Of a stretch of DNA of 64,000 nucleotides, positions 2,525-18,987 are shown in pieces (within the stretch, counting starts at the first letter, position 1; every line of letters starts with the position of its first letter). Source of the stretch: Advenella sp. S44 (GTDB taxonomy: Bacteria > Pseudomonadota > Gammaproteobacteria > Burkholderiales > Burkholderiaceae_B); contig NZ_NEXS01000005.1 in assembly GCF_002810445.1 (NCBI RefSeq), positions 1-64,000 on the forward strand, in the 5' to 3' direction. Both the position numbers and the translations under genes were made by a program. The notes below the pieces were generated by a model. That model was not told where the DNA came from and searched no databases. It was given only the letters and a program-made list of their open reading frames with translations.

Positions 2525-3510
2525 TTTAGGCTAATGTTCCTTTCGCTGATCACTTTGCCCCACTTATCATATTCGGCTTTCGCATATGCGGCGTATTCCG
2601 ACGGTTTTCCTCCTGTGAGCTCAAATCCATAAGTGCTTAAGCGCTTCACGACAACGGGGTCTTTCAACGCTGCTGCCAATGCAGAATAGAGCTTCGCAAC
2701 AATTTGATCAGGCACTTTAGCGGGTGCAAACAATCCAAAAGATGTCAGCGACTCAAACCCAGGCACACCCGTCTCAGCAATAGTCGGGACGTCGGGTAGG
2801 GAAGGCGTTCGCGTACCACCGCTGGTACCCAGAGCTCGAATCGCACCACTTCGAATCAATGGCTCGGCAATGCTAATATCGACAAACGCCGCTTGTGTAT
2901 CCTTGGCCAGCAGACCCTGCATCGCAGGTGCGCCACCGCGATATGGCACATGCAACATCTCGGTGCCGGACATTTCCAGAAACATTTCCATCGCTAAATG
3001 ACTAGACCCCCCGTGCCCCGCCGACGCGAAAGGCAGCTTTCCCGGATTTTTCTTTAAATATGCGATGAATTCCTCTACAGTGCGTGCTGGAACAGATGGA
3101 TGCACACATAATATCTGTGGGTTGACCCCAATCATGCCTAAAGGCCTAAAATCGCTATTTAGATCAAAGGGCAGGTCTTTGTAATAATGGGGCGCCATCG
3201 CGAAGGTGCTGTTAGTGCCTAGAAGAATGGTGTAGCCATCGGGTGTTGCATTTGCTACATTACGATATCCGATGGTACCGGTTGCGCCCGGCCTGTTCTC
3301 TACGACCATCGAGACCCCCAAATTCTTCGCCATGCTATCTGCCAGAACACGACCAAGGACATCTGTTGAACCGCCAACCGACCAGGGAATTACCATTGTG
3401 ATTGGACGCTGTGGATATCCTGATGCTGCGGCACTAAAGCCTGGGGAAAGTATCAGACAAAGAAATAGACTTAGAACTCCAACAAACTTACACAAAGCGG
3501 CAATACGCAT
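2521..3510 (-). CDS. Bug/TctC-family periplasmic solute-binding receptor
   Basis: A 329-residue exported protein. The signal peptide is residues 1-28 (hydrophobic VGVLSLFLCLILSPG, cleavage near SAAASG). The family signature YPQRPITMVIPWSVGGSTDVLGR is followed by NRPGATGTIGY. Members are receptors of tripartite tricarboxylate transporters or orphan receptors abundant in Alcaligenaceae, binding carboxylates such as citrate, glutamate or nicotinate. No TctA or TctB membrane subunits lie nearby. The start is supported by a GGGG-rich ribosome site six to eight bases upstream. It is the first gene of a two-gene operon with the OYE. The ligand cannot be read from the sequence. Confidence 0.88.
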   Translation of the reverse strand: MRIAALCKFVGVLSLFLCLILSPGFSAAASGYPQRPITMVIPWSVGGSTDVLGRVLADSMAKNLGVSMVVENRPGATGTIGYRNVANATPDGYTILLGTNSTFAMAPHYYKDLPFDLNSDFRPLGMIGVNPQILCVHPSVPARTVEEFIAYLKKNPGKLPFASAGHGGSSHLAMEMFLEMSGTEMLHVPYRGGAPAMQGLLAKDTQAAFVDISIAEPLIRSGAIRALGTSGGTRTPSLPDVPTIAETGVPGFESLTSFGLFAPAKVPDQIVAKLYSALAAALKDPVVVKRLSTYGFELTGGKPSEYAAYAKAEYDKWGKVISERNISLK

Positions 3511-3646
3511 TTCTGACCCCCTAAAGGTGAATTTAACAATGCCAACCGTATTCGGTACACGTGAAGGAGTGTTTACTATCCGTCAGGGACACCCATTTAT
3601 ACAAATTGAAAATTCTTATCTATTAATGGGCGCGACAAATAACTAG

Positions 3647-11532: not shown

Positions 11533-11695
11533 TTTACTTATTTCAGCTCAATTGCATCGCAAATCCGTGTATAGTTTTCGTTTCTACCCGTTTTGCGATT
11601 GCACGGCGCTTTCCGCGATATCTGCTGTTGCACGACAACCGCGCCTCGCAGATCGATAACCACGCAGCCCCGGAATACACCGTATTTACAGTCCA

Positions 11696-12085
11696 ATGAT
11701 CAGATTGACCGTGATCCTTTCCATCCTTATATCGCTGAGCGCCTGCTCGGATCGGCAGGACGACGAACGCCTACGACTGGCGCTGATGTCCGACTGCAGT
11801 GTGACGCGTGCAGCCTTATTGCCGGACGCCGAATCCGCCGACCAGCATGCACTGGCCAGCGTGCAAAAGGAATGCCTGGCGGCCTACAGCACCCTGCTGC
11901 AGGACACCTCTGCACAAGCACTGCGCGATCAGCAGACCGAGGTGTACGACAGTTTTCAGCGGGCATACCGAATGAAATACTCGCTGCAAGATGTCTTTGA
12001 CAGTCTGCCGCCGAAGTCCAAAGCGGCATACGAGAAACTGGCGACGACTCTTTTCAGTTTGAAAAAAGAGGAGATCGGCCTGTGA
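11696..12085 (+). CDS. Small lipoprotein of unknown function
   Basis: A 129-residue protein with a short signal and lipobox LSAC (Cys at residue 17), so it is probably membrane-anchored on the periplasmic side. The mature part is helical and charged, with two more cysteines (SDCSVT and QKECLA) that could form a disulfide. No known family is recognised. Its stop overlaps the GTG start of the next gene by four bases (GTGA), so the pair is an operon and the proteins may work together. The first of two unassigned genes. Confidence 0.7.
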   Translation: MIRLTVILSILISLSACSDRQDDERLRLALMSDCSVTRAALLPDAESADQHALASVQKECLAAYSTLLQDTSAQALRDQQTEVYDSFQRAYRMKYSLQDVFDSLPPKSKAAYEKLATTLFSLKKEEIGL

Positions 12086-12453
12086 AAGACGTCCGTGATC
12101 GCATGCGTCTACTAAAATATCTAATTGCCGCATTGTTCGTGCTCACCGCTATGGCCTATTTGTGGACCAGCATGAAGCGCCCGCATGAAACGGCCGGCGA
12201 ATATTCGCAGTTTGATAAGGAGCGGGCGGTTATCACCTGCATGACCGCCGCGTATGCGACCCACTATATGGACGATCCGGCCGAAACTGATATGTTCTCG
12301 GAGTGTGAAAGCCGTTTTGAAAAGCTCAAGGCGACCCTGCCTTACGCAGAGTATGTCCGCATTCAGCAGACACCGGTGTCTGCCGATGTCGGCCCCGATC
12401 AAATGCAGCCTTACGAGATTTTTCTCAAAATCATGACCGGCACGGATCGCTGA
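12082..12453 (+). CDS. Small single-pass membrane protein of unknown function
   Basis: A 123-residue protein starting at GTG. A basic N-terminus is followed by one hydrophobic segment (about residues 11-28, YLIAALFVLTAMAYLW), giving a short cytoplasmic tail and a periplasmic domain of about 95 residues. That domain has two cysteines (VITCMTAAY and MFSECESR). No family is recognised. Like its partner lipoprotein it has a small, helical, two-cysteine external domain, which hints at related roles but is not proof of homology. Confidence 0.68.
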   Translation: MKDVRDRMRLLKYLIAALFVLTAMAYLWTSMKRPHETAGEYSQFDKERAVITCMTAAYATHYMDDPAETDMFSECESRFEKLKATLPYAEYVRIQQTPVSADVGPDQMQPYEIFLKIMTGTDR

Positions 12454-12503
12454 TTCTGTGCCATAACGTCTGTTAATAATTGTTCCAAAGGATAAGTTTG
12501 CAA

Positions 12504-13505
12504 ATGCAAAAAAACAAAAGAAAAACAATGATTGCGCTGGCGCTTGCCGCTGTGACCGCCGGTTCCCTGACCTATGCCATTGCTCCGGCCCACGCCGATG
12601 AGAGCAAATGGCCAGAACACCCACTTAAACTGATCGTTCCATTCGGCCCCGGCTCGACTCCCGACCAGATCGCACGCATTATTGCCGGCAGCGCCGAGAA
12701 AAAACTGGGGCAGACCATCGTCATAGAAAACAAGGCAGGTGCCGGCGGCAATATCGGCACCAACGCGATCGCCAAGGCCAAGCCCGACGGCTACACCTTC
12801 GGGATTTCCATTACCGGTCCGCTGGTAAACAACCCGTTCATTTACGATAATCTGCCCTACGACCCGGAAAAAGATCTCGCGCCACTGACCATGGCAGTCA
12901 CGCAACCGAATGTGATTGTGGTTACCAAGAAGTCCGGGATCACCACACTGCAGGAACTGATCAGCAAAATACAGGCCGAACCTGACAAACTCAATTTTGC
13001 GACCTCGGGCAACGGAACCGGCTCTCATCTGTCGATAGCGCTGATGCTGCAGGCGGTCAACGGCAAGGCGACAGCCGTGCCCTACCCTTCGTCGCCAGCA
13101 GCACTCAATTCACTGATTGCGGGCGATACTCAGTTTACGGCACTGGCACCCATTGCTGTTCTTCCACTGGTCAAGGAAGGACGGCTGGTGGCACTGGCGC
13201 AGACCAGTGCGCAGCGCAACAGCTCGCTGCCGGATATTCCAACCGTGTCTGAAGCCGGCGCGCCGGGAATTGAAGGGGCAGCCTGGTCCGGTTTTGTTAT
13301 CTCTTCGCAGGTGCCCATTGCTATCCGCAATACGTTGACCGACGCGCTCTTGAGCGCGCTTAAGGATCCAGAAGTGGGCAAGCGGCTCAATGCCATGTAT
13401 ATGGATCCGATACCGAGCACGCCCGAGGCTTTTCGCGATTATATGAATCAGGAGAAGGCGCGCTGGCAACCATTGATCGAAAAGCTCGAACTCAAAGTCA
13501 ACTGA
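12504..13505 (+). CDS. Bug/TctC-family periplasmic solute-binding receptor
   Basis: A second orphan receptor of the tripartite tricarboxylate transporter family. From the preferred ATG at 12504 (AAGGA 11 bases upstream) it is 333 residues; a TTG at 12480 is a weaker alternative. The signal peptide ends near APAHA-DES. Signatures include PLKLIVPFGPGSTPDQIARI, ENKAGAGGNIGT and the C-terminal KARWQPLIEKL. It stands alone, followed after three bases by a convergent SDR gene. No transporter membrane subunits are nearby. The ligand is unknown, probably an organic acid. Confidence 0.88.
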   Translation: MQKNKRKTMIALALAAVTAGSLTYAIAPAHADESKWPEHPLKLIVPFGPGSTPDQIARIIAGSAEKKLGQTIVIENKAGAGGNIGTNAIAKAKPDGYTFGISITGPLVNNPFIYDNLPYDPEKDLAPLTMAVTQPNVIVVTKKSGITTLQELISKIQAEPDKLNFATSGNGTGSHLSIALMLQAVNGKATAVPYPSSPAALNSLIAGDTQFTALAPIAVLPLVKEGRLVALAQTSAQRNSSLPDIPTVSEAGAPGIEGAAWSGFVISSQVPIAIRNTLTDALLSALKDPEVGKRLNAMYMDPIPSTPEAFRDYMNQEKARWQPLIEKLELKVN

Positions 13506-13508
13506 GTA

Positions 13509-14288
13509 TCAGAATAGAACCGACAGGCCGCCATCGACAGCGATGACCTGCCCGTTGATATAGGCTGACAGGTCCGACGCCAGGAACACGGCCAGTCCGG
13601 CAATTTCGTCGGGCTGACCCCAGCGACCGGTCGGATTGCGTGCGGCCAGTTTTTCGCCTGCTGCCGAACCAGCCATTGCCATATTCGTTTCCGTGGCAAA
13701 GGTGCCGGGTGCAATCGCGTTGCTGGTAATCCCGTCTGCCGCAAACTCCACCGCCAGCGCCCGCATCATGCCCGTCAGTCCTTGTTTGGCGACCGGATAA
13801 ACGGCATCACCGGGACGCGCAACCTGTCCGGCCACCGACGTGATCGTGATGAGTCTGCCCCAGCGCTGCTTTTGCATGAGCGCCGCTGCCTGCTGGGACA
13901 AATACATCGCCCCCAGTAAATTGACCTCCAGCATTTGCTGCATCTGCGCGAAATTGAAGGCGCCAAGCGGCTGGCGAATCCGGATACCCATGTTGTTGAC
14001 GAGTACATCGCAACGACCATGATTTTCGGCCAGGCGCGCCATGCAGCGATCGATATCCTGCACGACCGACATATCGCCGACCAGGCCTTGCACATTTGCG
14101 CCCTGCTCGCCCAGGCTTGCGCAAGCCTGTTGCACCGATTGCGATGTGCGACCATTGATGTACACCAGCGCGCCGCTGCGGGCCATAGCACAAGCCATCG
14201 CTAGGCCCAGACCTCGTGTAGAGCCACTGATAAATACCACTTTGCCGTGCAGGGCGAAGCCCTCCGAGTATGAACGCTGCTGTTGCAT
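13509..14288 (-). CDS. Short-chain dehydrogenase/reductase (gluconate 5-dehydrogenase-like)
   Basis: A 259-residue classical SDR with a Rossmann fold. The cofactor motif is SGSTRGLG at 21-28, with Ser in place of the first Thr. NNMG lies at 98-101, the catalytic triad is Ser151, Tyr164 and Lys168, and the C-terminal INGQVIAVDGGL is typical. INGRTS at the end of the second strand suits NADP(H) (inference). The N-terminal FALHGKVVFISG resembles 5-keto-D-gluconate reductases, but the substrate cannot be fixed. It converges on the Bug receptor gene with a three-base gap, so neither has a separate terminator. Confidence 0.85.
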   Translation of the reverse strand: MQQQRSYSEGFALHGKVVFISGSTRGLGLAMACAMARSGALVYINGRTSQSVQQACASLGEQGANVQGLVGDMSVVQDIDRCMARLAENHGRCDVLVNNMGIRIRQPLGAFNFAQMQQMLEVNLLGAMYLSQQAAALMQKQRWGRLITITSVAGQVARPGDAVYPVAKQGLTGMMRALAVEFAADGITSNAIAPGTFATETNMAMAGSAAGEKLAARNPTGRWGQPDEIAGLAVFLASDLSAYINGQVIAVDGGLSVLF

Positions 14289-14413
14289 TGAAATTCCTGG
14301 GATCTGCTGTTACGAGGGTTTGAATGATAGCCTGACTGATGTCAAGCGTATGCAATAGGCCGGTTTACGGTTAAACTTGAATCTATTTTCACCTAATTGC
14401 CTGGAAAAAGTAA

Positions 14414-15727
14414 ATGTTTGCCAGAAACACCCCTTTTAACTACGAGAAAAACTTAAAAGCGTGTGCAAAAGGACAGAAAAGCGCATTACAGACGCTGTTC
14501 AAACATGAGGCGCCGCCCATGCTCGCCCTTTCCCTGCGTGTTCTTGGCAACTACCATCTGGCTGAACAGGCGGTCGTATCGGCCTTTGTGCTGATCTGGA
14601 ACAATGCCGAGGCTTATGATGAAGACATGGGTCCGGCGCGTGGATGGATCTACTCCATCCTGCGTTACCGCATCAACCAGATTTTCAAAGAGCACTATGA
14701 TGCCATACAGACTGCCAGCAAGAATCAGGATGAATCTGTATTAAATGAAGTCAGCAGTAATCTGCACGCCGACGTGCGCGAAGACTTGCCGGCAACGCCG
14801 GCATTTTATCTGCATCTGGAAGAATTGCCCGATGAGCCGCAAAAAGCATTGATCAATATGTATTTCAGTGGCATGTCGCAGGCGCAAACAGCGACCAAAG
14901 TGGGCATGCCGCTAGGCCGATTCAAGGAAAATCTGTTTCTCGGGCTGCAGCACCTGGCCAAGCATCTACCTGAGTTTTCGCCGCCCCATCACGCTACGGA
15001 AAAAATGGGCGAATACGTTCTGGGAGGCTTGTCCGAGAATGAAGAAAAGCTCGTGTACAAACTGATGAATGACGATGCGGGCGTCTCGCGCATTGCCTTG
15101 TTGTGGGAGGCCCAGTTTACGCATTTGCTCAGTCAGTTGCCTGCGCAGGTTGTCGGCAGTCGCGTATGGGAGAAAGTCAAGGCCAAAGCCTTTGCCAAGG
15201 CGCCGATCCAGTCTCCTGCGGCTACCGCTACAGACTCTGTCGACGAAGACGGAGGCGAGCTGACGTATGGATCGGGCCTGAAAACCACATTGCGCAAACT
15301 TTGGTTCATGCTTCCTTTCTGGCGCAGCCTGGCGCTGCTGCTGGGCATTGCCGCGCTCGCATTCTGGTACGTGGGCACCCCGCCCTCGGATCTGCCCAAG
15401 AAGGTTGCAGTGCTTGATTCGTCCATGAGTAGCACGCAAACGGGATGGGTAGTCCGTATCAATGCCGCCGGCGATGCCCTGTTTTCTCCCGTGGTACGTC
15501 AGACGGTATCGGACGGGCTGGTATTGCAGGTCTGGAAGCACGCCAACGATAACGATAGCGCGCTTGGCTTGATCCGGGACAGCAAAGCCTTTCGGCTGTC
15601 CGCAGAAAAAATCGGCCCGATTCAGGCCGGCGACCAGTTGCTGATCAGTCTTGAGCCCGACGGCGGTTCACGCAATGATCGTCCGTCCGGATCGGTCCTG
15701 TACAAGGGGACTGTGGCGGATCTTTAG
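14414..15727 (+). CDS. ECF-type sigma factor fused to RskA-like membrane anti-sigma factor
   Basis: One uninterrupted 437-residue frame. Residues about 24-95 resemble sigma region 2 (AEQAVVSAFVLIWNNA; GWIYSILRYRIN), and 134-185 resemble region 4 (LPDEPQKALINMYFSGMSQAQTATKVGM). Residues 198-255 match the cytoplasmic start of RskA-type anti-sigma factors (MGEYVLGGLSENEE ... WEKVKA). A membrane span lies at about 304-320, and residues 343-435 match the RskA C-terminal domain (GWVVRINAAGDALF ... DQLLISLEPDGGS). Sigma and anti-sigma are normally separate adjacent genes. An internal ATG at codon 198 preceded by GGA could also give free anti-sigma. No other regulatory gene is adjacent. Target promoters are unknown. 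Confidence 0.85.
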   Translation: MFARNTPFNYEKNLKACAKGQKSALQTLFKHEAPPMLALSLRVLGNYHLAEQAVVSAFVLIWNNAEAYDEDMGPARGWIYSILRYRINQIFKEHYDAIQTASKNQDESVLNEVSSNLHADVREDLPATPAFYLHLEELPDEPQKALINMYFSGMSQAQTATKVGMPLGRFKENLFLGLQHLAKHLPEFSPPHHATEKMGEYVLGGLSENEEKLVYKLMNDDAGVSRIALLWEAQFTHLLSQLPAQVVGSRVWEKVKAKAFAKAPIQSPAATATDSVDEDGGELTYGSGLKTTLRKLWFMLPFWRSLALLLGIAALAFWYVGTPPSDLPKKVAVLDSSMSSTQTGWVVRINAAGDALFSPVVRQTVSDGLVLQVWKHANDNDSALGLIRDSKAFRLSAEKIGPIQAGDQLLISLEPDGGSRNDRPSGSVLYKGTVADL

Positions 15728-16008
15728 TCGCTAAAATGATTTACCCGGATTTATCAAGCGTGTCCATGACTGTTGCGCCATGGCTGCATATCATTGCGAG
15801 CTGTGTAGAAACGCCCGCTGGCGTCGCTCGTCATAATCAAAACAGTCGCCATTTTACGCAAATGCATTGCACCTCGCACACGTTCGCGCGATCAAAACTG
15901 TCATTTTGTCAGCTCAAATTCAGCAGGCAACGAAAAATATAAGCGTCGATCTAAAAAGATAAAGTATGATTGTAATAATTCGCCATAATTCTTCATAAAT
16001 AGCACTAA
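15728..16008. other. Intergenic region upstream of mrp operon
   Basis: There is no gene here. The last 80 bases are AT-rich and probably contain the mrp promoter, but no -35/-10 pair is good enough to place. No terminator hairpin with a T-run follows the sigma gene. Confidence 0.35.
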
Positions 16009-18987
16009 ATGTCATTAATCCTGCTTCTAATTCTTCCGTTTCTGGGTAGTATCCTCGTTGGTTTACTACCCGTGCACGCCAGGGCACCGGAAGCATGGAT
16101 GGCAGGCATTATTGCAGTGATCGGTGCGCTGATCACCTTGTCGTTGCTGCCCGATGTGCTGCAAGGCAACACGATTGTCCAGACGCTGGAATGGGTACCA
16201 TCATATAAACTCAATCTGGTGTTTCGCATGGACGGCTACGCATGGCTGTTTTCCCTGCTTATTACCGTAATGGGTGCGCTGGTGGTGCTTTACGCGCGCT
16301 ACTATATGTCGCCACGGGATCCGGTCACCCGCTTTTACGCCTTTTTCCTGGCGTTCATGGGTTCGATGCTTGGCGTTGTCCTCTCGGGCAACATTATCCA
16401 ATTGGTGATCTTCTGGGAATTGACCAGTCTGTCGTCGTTTATGCTTATCGCTTACTGGAATCATCGCCAGGATGCCAAGCGCGGCGCCAGGATGGCCTTG
16501 ACCATCACCGCAGCCGGCGGGTTCTGTCTGCTGGCGGCCATGCTCATGATCGGGCATATTGTAGGCAGTTATGATCTGGGCGCCGTTCTGGATTCCGGCG
16601 ATTTGCTGCGCGATCATCCATGGTACCTGGCCATCCTGATTTTGTTTGCGCTGGGCGCGCTCACCAAAAGCGCGCAGTTTCCGTTCCATTTCTGGCTGCC
16701 CAATGCCATGGCAGCGCCCACGCCGGTATCGGCCTACCTGCATTCGGCAACCATGGTCAAGGCCGGGGTATTTATTCTGGCCCGATTCTGGCCTGTGCTT
16801 GCCGGCACCTCGGCATGGTTCTGGATTATCGGCATGGCGGGACTGTGCTCGTTGTTCCTGGGCGCGTACGCGGCGACGTTCCAGCGGGATATGAAGGCGG
16901 TCCTGGCCTATTCCACCATTAGCCACCTGGGGTTGATTACGTTATTGCTGGGCCTAAATAGCAAGCTGGCACTGATAGCGGCGCTTTTTCACATGATCAA
17001 CCATGCCACTTTCAAGGCGTCGCTGTTCATGGCCACGGGTATCGTCGATCACGAAACCGGCACGCGGGACCTGATATTGCTGTCGGGTTTGCGCAAGGCG
17101 ATGCCAATCACCGCCACGCTTGCCGTGGTTGCCGCAGCGGCCATGGCAGGCGTTCCGCTGCTTAACGGCTTTATTTCAAAAGAAATGTTTTTTGCCGAAA
17201 CCCTGACTCTGCCGGATTACCTTGAAGTGTCCAGCTGGTTGCCGGTATTTGCCGTGCTGGCCAGTGCGTTCAGTGTCGCCTATTCCCTGCGACTGATCCT
17301 CCAGGTCTTCTTTGGGCCCGTCGCAACCGACTTGCCCAGCCAACCGCATGAGCCGCCACGCTGGATGCTGGTGCCCAGTGGCATTCTGGTGTTGCTCTGC
17401 CTGCTGATCGGCATCATGCCGCAAACGGTGATCGGTCCGGTGCTCGATTCAGCAGCCCACTCAATTCTCGGTCCGACCCTGCCGGAATACAGCCTTGCCA
17501 TTTGGCACGGCTTCAACTTGCCACTTACCATGAGTCTGATCGCCATGGGCGGCGGCGTCCTGCTCATGTTTGTCCTGCGACCGCTGCAGCGGCGCTCGCC
17601 AGGCCAGACACCGTTGCTATACCGCATCGATGGGCGTGTTTTTTTTGACGGGCTGATGAACCTGCTCGATACCGTCGCCTATCAGGCAATGACTGTGTTT
17701 TCAACCAAGCGGCTTCAACCGCAGGTGTTGTGGATCGTTGTTATCACGGTTGTGGTCACGATCATGCCTTTACTGCTGTTTGAGGCCTGGCCGCAACTCG
17801 TTATGCGCAACATCGATTTGCCCTTTACCCTGCTGTGGATTATCGGGTCGTGCTGTGCGATTGGCGCGGCGTACCAGGCCAAATACAATCGATTTCGGTC
17901 TCTGGTTCTGCTCGGCGGCGCCGGCCTGTGCTGTAGCCTGACGTATCTGTGGTTGTCAGCCCCCGATTTGGCGCTCACGCAATTGGTTGTCGAAATGGTT
18001 ACCACGGTTCTGCTTTTGCTGGGCTTGCGCTGGTTGCCGCGCAGAATGTCGACCGAACCACCGTCCGACCGTGGCCGGGCGCTGGTCCGGCGCTTCCGTG
18101 ACATGACAATCGCCGTGGTGGCAGGTCTGGGCATGTCGATCCTCACTTATCTGCAACTGTCGCGTCCCAGACCAGAAGGCGTCTCTTCGTTTTATCTTGA
18201 AAAAGCCCTGCCTGAAGGCGGGGGTACGAATGTGGTGAACGTCCTGCTCGTCGACTTCCGTGGGTTTGATACCTATGGCGAGATCACGGTGCTCAGTATT
18301 GTCGCGCTTACCGTATATGCGTTGTTGCGGCGTTTCCGCCCACCTCGCGAAAGCCTGAAAGCCCTGGAAGACAGGCGCTTTCGTCAGCGCGGTGATACTG
18401 CGAGCGTGGATAAAGACGCCGAGCTGCCGCGTGGCACCATGCTGGTGCCGACCGTGATGTCGCGCTTTGTCATGCCGATCTCTACGCTGATTGCCTTGTT
18501 TTTCCTGCTGCGTGGCCACAATCTGCCTGGCGGTGGCTTTGTCGCGGGCCTTATTTTTGCCGCTTCGGTGATCCTCCAATATATGATGGGCGGCATCCGC
18601 TGGGTCGAAGATCGTTCGCGCATCTTTCCCCAATACTGGATTGCCGGCGGACTGCTCATGGCCGGTACCGCAGGGATATCTGCCTGGCTGTTCAAGTTGC
18701 CGTTTTTGTCTGCGCTGGCAGCCGATATTAATTTGGGCCCGCTAGGCCATCTGCATTTATCCAGTGTCATCTTGTTCGACTTAGGCGTGTTTGCAGTTGT
18801 GGTCGGCTCTACCCTGTTTATGCTGGTCGCCTTGAGCCACCAATCCTTGAGGTTCTACAAAAAAGTGACGGCCGAAGCTGCCGAAGACAATACGGGCAAT
18901 GACGACACCGCGAGTGCTCAAGATGATGCCGCTACGGTCAGACCGGCATTGCCACCAGACACGCAGGGAGCCCCATCATGGAACTGA
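16009..18987 (+). CDS. phaAB: Mrp/Pha Na+(K+)/H+ antiporter subunit A with fused subunit B
   Basis: A 992-residue polytopic membrane protein. Residues about 1-600 form the NuoL-like proton channel, with the conserved PFHFWLPNAMAAPTPVSAYLHSATMVKAG and HMINHATFKASLF segments. A middle part near residues 640-760 (LVVEMVTTVLLLLGLRWL) matches the MrpA C-terminal/MbhD-type domain. Residues about 805-950 (VMSRFVMPISTLIALFFLLRGHNLPGGGF) are an MnhB/MrpB domain. The fusion defines the six-gene Mrp type found in proteobacteria. It heads the operon and overlaps subunit C by ten bases. It couples sodium or potassium export to proton entry. Confidence 0.93.
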   Translation: MSLILLLILPFLGSILVGLLPVHARAPEAWMAGIIAVIGALITLSLLPDVLQGNTIVQTLEWVPSYKLNLVFRMDGYAWLFSLLITVMGALVVLYARYYMSPRDPVTRFYAFFLAFMGSMLGVVLSGNIIQLVIFWELTSLSSFMLIAYWNHRQDAKRGARMALTITAAGGFCLLAAMLMIGHIVGSYDLGAVLDSGDLLRDHPWYLAILILFALGALTKSAQFPFHFWLPNAMAAPTPVSAYLHSATMVKAGVFILARFWPVLAGTSAWFWIIGMAGLCSLFLGAYAATFQRDMKAVLAYSTISHLGLITLLLGLNSKLALIAALFHMINHATFKASLFMATGIVDHETGTRDLILLSGLRKAMPITATLAVVAAAAMAGVPLLNGFISKEMFFAETLTLPDYLEVSSWLPVFAVLASAFSVAYSLRLILQVFFGPVATDLPSQPHEPPRWMLVPSGILVLLCLLIGIMPQTVIGPVLDSAAHSILGPTLPEYSLAIWHGFNLPLTMSLIAMGGGVLLMFVLRPLQRRSPGQTPLLYRIDGRVFFDGLMNLLDTVAYQAMTVFSTKRLQPQVLWIVVITVVVTIMPLLLFEAWPQLVMRNIDLPFTLLWIIGSCCAIGAAYQAKYNRFRSLVLLGGAGLCCSLTYLWLSAPDLALTQLVVEMVTTVLLLLGLRWLPRRMSTEPPSDRGRALVRRFRDMTIAVVAGLGMSILTYLQLSRPRPEGVSSFYLEKALPEGGGTNVVNVLLVDFRGFDTYGEITVLSIVALTVYALLRRFRPPRESLKALEDRRFRQRGDTASVDKDAELPRGTMLVPTVMSRFVMPISTLIALFFLLRGHNLPGGGFVAGLIFAASVILQYMMGGIRWVEDRSRIFPQYWIAGGLLMAGTAGISAWLFKLPFLSALAADINLGPLGHLHLSSVILFDLGVFAVVVGSTLFMLVALSHQSLRFYKKVTAEAAEDNTGNDDTASAQDDAATVRPALPPDTQGAPSWN

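Follow-up and report, generated by a model that had tools for sequence, protein, structure and literature searches.

A single-chain ECF sigma factor and RskA-type anti-sigma factor in Advenella

In Advenella sp. S44, an ECF sigma factor and an RskA-type anti-sigma factor are encoded as one covalent chain. Within the window, the whole 64,000-nucleotide stretch of DNA that was analysed, the gene lies at 14414-15727 on the forward strand as a single frame from ATG to stop, with 437 codons, 437 residues and no internal stop. A sequence-only reading had described this continuous sigma/anti-sigma frame with its RskA C-terminal domain, and the open frame and Pfam matches bear it out; the covalent fusion, including its membrane helix, is confirmed as real. 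The account that we favor, and consider probable, is that the protein is a membrane-anchored, self-inhibited ECF sigma factor, made by the joining of genes that overlapped at NTGA and probably released by RseP. The gene and its parts are:

14414..15727, + strand: single-chain ECF sigma / RskA-type anti-sigma gene (open frame and Pfam; one chain in 10/10 genomes of the genus)
14495..14674, + strand: sigma-70 region 2, residues 28-87 (Pfam PF04542 Sigma70_r2, 25.0 bits, cut-off 24)
14816..14956, + strand: sigma-70 region 4, residues 135-181 (Pfam PF08281 Sigma70_r4_2, 24.2 bits, E 2.7e-5, cut-off 25.7)
14966..14995, + strand: junction linker, residues 185-194 (AlphaFold helices; conservation)
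14996..15190, + strand: predicted cytosolic class I-like anti-sigma domain, residues 195-259 (AlphaFold; layout as in excerpts of PMC7406223)
15005..15007, + strand: internal ATG, codon 198 (not conserved)
15311..15373, + strand: predicted membrane helix, residues 300-320 (AlphaFold helix and hydrophobic sequence)
15347..15697, + strand: RskA_C domain, residues 312-428 (Pfam PF10099, 53.2 bits, E 4.8e-14, cut-off 29.4)

Domain architecture and predicted structure

By its domain content, with regions 2 and 4 and no other sigma region listed by Pfam at E 1 in the 437-residue chain, the protein would belong to the ECF (group IV) members of the sigma-70 family. The profile searches proposed with the sequence-only reading placed Sigma70_r2 and RskA_C over their cut-offs and Sigma70_r4_2, despite its low E-value, 1.5 bits below its own in the Advenella sp. 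S44 chain. NCBIfam models of whole ECF sigma factors also match, the best spanning residues 3-179 (E 8.8e-32), as does NF052375, ‘anti-sigma factor’, over residues 198-421 (E 5.2e-16). None of the 25 NCBIfam matches listed reaches its curated cut-off, so no named sigma subgroup is assigned. In the PDB, ECF sigma chains align with portions of residues 11-187. The FecR family gave no Pfam match at E 1 in the chain, where RskA_C is listed instead.

Two traits of the RskA-type class I anti-sigma factors are found in the remainder of the chain, namely the RskA C-terminal domain and a cytosolic domain of four helices, predicted at residues 195-203, 208-220, 222-241 and 249-259 in both AlphaFold models. 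The chain departs from the rule of that class that the anti-sigma factor is encoded apart from its sigma factor. The junction linker connects the final helix of the sigma part (167-184) to the helix that opens the anti-sigma domain, and residues 195-260 contain no cysteine. A membrane span had been claimed at about 304-320, and a helix is predicted at 300-320. Beyond it, the full-length model places the strands of RskA_C between residues 328 and 436, a domain that would sit outside the membrane.

AlphaFold gave a pLDDT of 82.7 and a pTM of 0.56 for the full chain (36 fused sequences), and 87.2 and 0.85 for residues 1-262 (38 sequences, fused rows only). The sequence-only reading had raised the docking of the anti-sigma domain on the sigma part, and in the model of residues 1-262 sigma region 2, sigma region 4 and the anti-sigma domain are indeed predicted to form one compact unit, with putative contacts among them. 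In the Foldseek results, SigW-RsiW chains have the best E-values, and SigK from the SigK-RskA complex (4nqw_A) comes fourth. Among the chains listed, the two-domain arrangement of the 1-262 model is best fit by 4nqw_A (TM by target 0.74, rmsd 5.5; 0.73 for the full-chain model), with lower values for SigW-RsiW (0.49-0.51), SigE-ChrR (0.50-0.52), E. coli sigma E-RseA (0.41-0.45) and sigma factors in RNA polymerase complexes (0.29-0.42). Fragments of region 4 alone reach 0.62-0.72 owing to their short length. Excerpts of PMC7406223 describe four sigma/anti-sigma co-crystals together with the scheme for class I.

SigK-RskA of Mycobacterium tuberculosis and Yersinia enterocolitica is thus the nearest likeness in sigma arrangement, and it shares with the Advenella chain sigma regions 2 and 4, a cytosolic anti-sigma domain free of a zinc motif, a membrane anchor and the RskA C-terminal domain. 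SigK and RskA are two proteins, whereas the Advenella protein is one chain, and the SigK model NF007228 scores 49.9 bits against a cut-off of 226, so by this measure the sigma factor does not qualify as SigK. IutY of Pseudomonas putida (ECF243) resembles the Advenella protein in that an N-terminal sigma factor, a single membrane segment and an anti-sigma part on the outer side make up one chain. The outer part of IutY is FecR-like, whereas that of the Advenella chain is RskA_C. The predicted cytosolic part of IutY is described as a pair of domains similar to sigma 2 and sigma 4 (excerpt of PMC9249621), to which the Advenella chain adds a separate anti-sigma domain; after a cut in the membrane, the Advenella sigma factor, unlike IutY, would keep a whole anti-sigma domain. 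IutY is partnered by the outer-membrane receptor IutA, and no such receptor is present among the annotated neighbors of the Advenella gene. The actinobacterial groups ECF48, ECF52 (SCO4117) and ECF53 are alike in having a C-terminal anti-sigma-like extension and membrane helices, but carry a zinc-finger domain that the cysteine-free anti-sigma domain of Advenella lacks. Some members of ECF36 are also fused to an anti-sigma factor; their N-terminal extension has three to four membrane helices and DUF2275, in contrast to the single helix and RskA_C at the C-terminal side in Advenella (both comparisons from excerpts of PMC8999054).

Sigma/anti-sigma hybrids are therefore already known (ECF243 IutY, ECF48/52/53 and some ECF36; excerpts of PMC8999054), and the chain described here adds an RskA-type form to this small set. 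The literature searched yielded no description of a single chain of the RskA type, though the ECF reclassification of 2021, which lies beyond that search, may list one. The word RskA is absent from the main text of the hybrid review PMC8999054, and no paper that treats both Advenella and anti-sigma factors was found in the literature searched. The expectation that such pairs are normally two genes needs amending, given the known hybrids and the recurrence of fusion in this family.

Conservation of the chain in Advenella

The single chain is unbroken in all 10 Advenella genomes examined, one of which (G004) is cut by a contig end and lacks its first 30 residues. Three named public records are among these, from Advenella incenata, Advenella sp. 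FME57 and A. kashmirensis, and encode the same chain at 80-87% identity; NCBI taxonomy places the genus in the Alcaligenaceae, Betaproteobacteria. A single chain is likewise found, among the genomes listed with a match, in 8/8 of genus g23 and 6/7 of genus g24. In the seventh (L044, G247:C79), a TAG follows the anti-sigma domain and the RskA_C part lies in another frame, on a draft contig, which may reflect decay or error. Within the Advenella sp. S44 genome, the only match to the chain at E 0.001 is the gene itself, and no extra split pair is present at that threshold. In six other Advenella genomes (G001, G002, G003, G005, G008 and G009), a split sigma/anti-sigma pair of this type is present as well.

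To describe the rates of change along the chain, the Advenella sp. S44 gene was compared with five relatives that are 80-88% identical to it. Values of dN are 0.034-0.066 for sigma 2, 0.035-0.090 between sigma 2 and 4, 0.008-0.041 for sigma 4, 0-0.039 for the junction and 0.022-0.045 for the anti-sigma domain, rising to 0.104-0.197 for the RskA C-terminal domain and 0.273-0.489 for a loose stretch at residues 257-300. As dS is often near saturation and undefined in some cells, dN/dS ratios are rough. In line with these values, identity is 91-100% across junction residues 187-197 and 89-98% across sigma 2 and sigma 4, and the sigma regions, the junction and the anti-sigma domain are slowly evolving.

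These comparisons bear on two ways in which the single chain could be misread. An error of sequencing or assembly that fused two genes would yield such a frame, and in its favor split pairs are present in 26/33 sampled genera. A hidden stop near codons 190-197, which would have refuted the fusion, is not borne out; the same chain recurs in every Advenella genome examined and its junction is conserved, which rules out assembly error for the S44 gene and leaves an artifact with a negligible probability. It had also been suggested that free anti-sigma factor might be made from ATG-198, so that the gene has two products, the full chain and its second half. This codon is located where the anti-sigma domain usually begins, and has GGAA upstream. 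Met198 is, against this, replaced by Ile in other Advenella genomes, among them close relatives, and in other genera. We scanned 40 distinct fused frames from 14 codons before to 3 codons after the start of the anti-sigma match: 22 have any ATG, GTG or TTG near the junction, 8 have ATG, and 3 have ATG with a Shine-Dalgarno-like stretch, these being the S44 gene and its near relatives L003 and L004. We therefore reject the internal start on conservation; a second product is no conserved feature and is very improbable.

Fused and split relatives across the family

A search of the family gave a match at E 0.001 in 172 of 268 genomes, and from these matches we chose by hand 76 loci in 33 genera. 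Fused and split forms, both of which the sequence-only reading had proposed looking for among relatives, are both present: 39 loci in 9 genera have one frame, and 37 loci in 26 genera have two. Locus L133, where the contig ends after the anti-sigma domain, is counted as fused. Both states occur within one genus in g20 and in g60, so that split relatives stand beside fused ones as a natural comparison in two genera. The short single chains, in Advenella, g23 and g24, are frames of 435-476 codons, and the junction stretch of the others is similar in length to the ten residues of the S44 protein. The long single chains, in g2, g5, g7, g20, g26 and g60, are frames of 487-663 codons in which a spacer rich in Pro, Ala, Ser and Thr separates the anti-sigma domain from the membrane helix. 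Similar spacers in the split relatives L071, L072 and L083 indicate that the spacer is independent of fusion. From the anti-sigma domain to the RskA_C match, spacers in split and long-fusion loci (L072 and L083, for example) comprise about 100-300 residues and are very variable between genera.

In 36 of the 37 split pairs, the stop of the sigma gene overlaps the start of the anti-sigma gene by four bases, NTGA, with ATG as the start in 35 and GTG in one, and the anti-sigma domain lies in a different frame from the sigma factor. The remaining pair, L070 (G165, at about 3506-3545), has both parts in the same frame with one TGA between them, a near-fused state unlike the other 36. Gene overlap of the NTGA type usually couples translation. 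As the split pairs overlap in this way, a near 1:1 ratio of sigma to anti-sigma factor may be older than the fusion.

Genus g60 illustrates how the two states are related. Fused L055 (G169, one genome) and split L131 (G170) differ by one base at the overlap and are sisters with support of 100/100 on short branches. This one-base difference removes the stop from the frame and merges the two frames, as is expected for fusion at an NTGA overlap or for its reverse. L055 is a single draft genome, and sequencing error may explain its fusion.

We found no stop-free full-length single chain outside the family, either in a search of the order (399 genomes, matches listed to about E 4e-7) or among the matches listed in a search of the class (369 genomes, E up to 1e-10), in both of which a chain with a long spacer is scored in two separate parts. 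One match from outside the family, G315:C1, covers residues 17-434 with a TGA inside. Among plasmids, 152 records match, and in 63 of them a single place spans 80% of the query or more; of the best five matches, four coincide with sigma and anti-sigma genes that are annotated as separate, and the fifth with no annotated gene.

Trees of these loci indicate that joins came and went several times in the family. The first tree, of 67 rows, was built from the sigma factor, the anti-sigma domain and RskA_C, with L010 left out, and needs at least 4 changes between fused and split, 2 of which are forced by the starred branches alone. Holding all fused rows together gave a p-AU of 0.013 on this tree and 0.030 for the anti-sigma part (63 rows). 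A single origin of fusion is thus rejected on these data, as it is on a larger tree of 73 rows, where p-AU is 1.4e-63, a value resting largely on the near-identical g60 pair plus L132; the p-AU test presumes a group named before the tree is seen. With the sigma factor alone, a single origin is not rejected (p-AU 0.184), while the sigma tree still needs 5 changes. The larger tree, in which long branches meet at L066/L067 with a warning from the program, requires 7 changes (6-7 in the bootstrap), 4 of them forced by starred branches. It requires 6 without L055, 4 without g20 and g60, and 4 without g60, L058 and L068. The four fused g20 rows held together were not rejected (p-AU 0.135). The short-fusion clade, which includes the S44 gene, has support of 100/100 and a long stem (1.0). 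Changes counted in this way carry no direction; we infer that the split state is the older one because it is spread both inside and outside the family.

Proposed mechanism, upstream region and neighboring genes

In the mechanism that we propose, residues 1-185 would act as the sigma factor and residues 195-259 as an RskA-type anti-sigma domain that folds back onto its own sigma factor, most likely between regions 2 and 4, like RskA on SigK. Residues 300-320 would anchor the chain in the inner membrane and residues 328-437 would form the RskA C-terminal domain outside. Such a gene would have arisen from two genes overlapping at NTGA, an event that probably happened more than once in the family. 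As the sequence-only reading supposed, the sigma factor would be tethered to the membrane in a fixed 1:1 ratio with its inhibitor, and its release would need proteolysis or a conformational switch. We suggest that an envelope signal would lead to trimming of the outer domain and then to a cut by RseP in the membrane, which would free a soluble piece consisting of the sigma factor and the anti-sigma domain. The anti-sigma domain could then be removed further or could stay attached but displaced, the latter option being raised by the reported activator-inhibitor behavior of RskA. Proteolytic release is our preferred first step, with the second step taken either way. The exact contacts, topology, proteolysis, signal and regulon are elements of the scheme that we infer.

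Release by Prc and RseP is a model borrowed for the Advenella chain from IutY, which is processed by both proteases (excerpts of PMC5411451 and PMC8999054); RskA itself is cut by Rip1 (excerpt of PMC7509140). The genome encodes RseP, over the equivalog cut-off, and has two S41-protease matches, the family of Prc. A difficulty for the release model is that a cut in the membrane leaves the anti-sigma domain in place, and processive degradation could destroy the sigma factor too. Alternatively, the protein could switch without cleavage, a signal at the RskA C-terminal domain shifting the anti-sigma domain so that the sigma factor acts while still attached to the membrane or to that domain. RskA is reported to activate SigK as well as inhibit it, via its N-terminal part and with enhancement by the membrane and outer part (excerpt of PMC7509140), and several lineages have kept the anti-sigma domain joined, so its removal may be unneeded. 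IutY, the nearest tested hybrid, nonetheless needs Prc and RseP (excerpt of PMC5411451), and RseP is present here; we consider a switch without any cleavage possible but unlikely.

After the switch model, the rival that we take most seriously is that the sigma part is degenerate and that the protein is a membrane receptor or decoy that no longer directs transcription. When five single-chain relatives were scanned at E 0.01, region 4 was missing from the matches for three (L012, L045 and L066) and weak for L055, so some relatives may bind promoters differently or no longer at all. Regions 2.3-2.4 are less basic in the short chains (mean charge +1.2) than in the long fusions (+3.5) or the split pairs (+4.0), and the branch leading to the short-fusion clade is long. 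Against degeneracy stand the 89-98% identity and low dN of sigma 2 and sigma 4 among the S44 gene and its five relatives, along with W62, N64, A65, G77, W78 and R84, which are invariant in 15 short single chains. On balance we hold a degenerate sigma factor to be improbable and continue to prefer proteolytic release.

The recurrence of joins suggests that the inhibitor need not leave for the sigma factor to work. More tentatively, and with more doubt than confidence, we raise the idea that overlapping sigma and RskA genes were joined repeatedly because the anti-sigma domain need not leave, serving not just as an off-switch but also as a functional component of the sigma factor once this is released and active. 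Were this the case, fused chains would be natural proof that RskA-type proteins modulate rather than merely sequester, and a one-base slip at a gene overlap would be enough to create such a switch. A fused chain can shed its anti-sigma domain only by a cut in or beyond the ten-residue linker, which makes the need for separation testable. The arrangement also suggests one-gene sensor switches in which the levels of sigma and anti-sigma factor are unable to drift apart.

The surroundings of the gene comprise the following features:

12480..13505, + strand: TctC-type solute receptor gene, upstream neighbor (Pfam PF03401)
13509..14288, - strand: SDR dehydrogenase gene, between TctC and the fusion gene and outside the system (annotation of neighbors)
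14354..14413, + strand: conserved upstream block, possible promoter or leader (alignments of six and three loci; contains GGTTAAACTTGAA at 14369-14381)
16009..18987, + strand: first gene of an Mrp-type antiporter operon (annotation of neighbors)

Six Advenella loci have largely the same sequence over the 60 bases that precede the start codon; five of the six contain GGTTAAACTTGAA (L006 is one base shorter), and GGTTAAACT(T/C)GAA is found in three further loci whose proteins are 45-48% identical to the S44 chain. This motif may be a putative autoregulatory site. As a route to the regulon, a genome-wide search for GGTTAAACTYGAA with at most one mismatch gave no excess, with 4 places versus 14 for the reversed control, and no regulon emerged. 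A scan for sigma-70 promoters across 14250-16050 found two promoter-like sites, neither of them before the fusion gene.

Gene neighborhoods were compared at 40 loci, with crude gene calling and flanks of a few kilobases. A TctC gene lies upstream on the same strand in 11/11 short fusions, 8/21 split loci and 0/8 long fusions; such genes are numerous in this family, and single cases such as L090 may therefore be due to chance. The Mrp operon follows the fusion gene in 10/11 short-fusion loci, the exception being L098. In the split genus g14, the pair lies between TctC and a block of DUF455 - MerR - HU/IHF-type - pheT (L078; L072 without MerR). DUF455 also adjoins 6/8 long fusions, and this sharing ties the contexts of g14 split and long-fusion loci together. 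Upstream of TctC in the window are two small genes, 11593-11997 and 12082-12450, without a Pfam match at E 1e-4, and the group of the latter is kept in 8/11 short-fusion loci. The product of 16009-18987, of 992 codons, joins MrpA and an MnhB-like part in one chain (Proton_antipo_M, MbhD, MbhE, MnhB).
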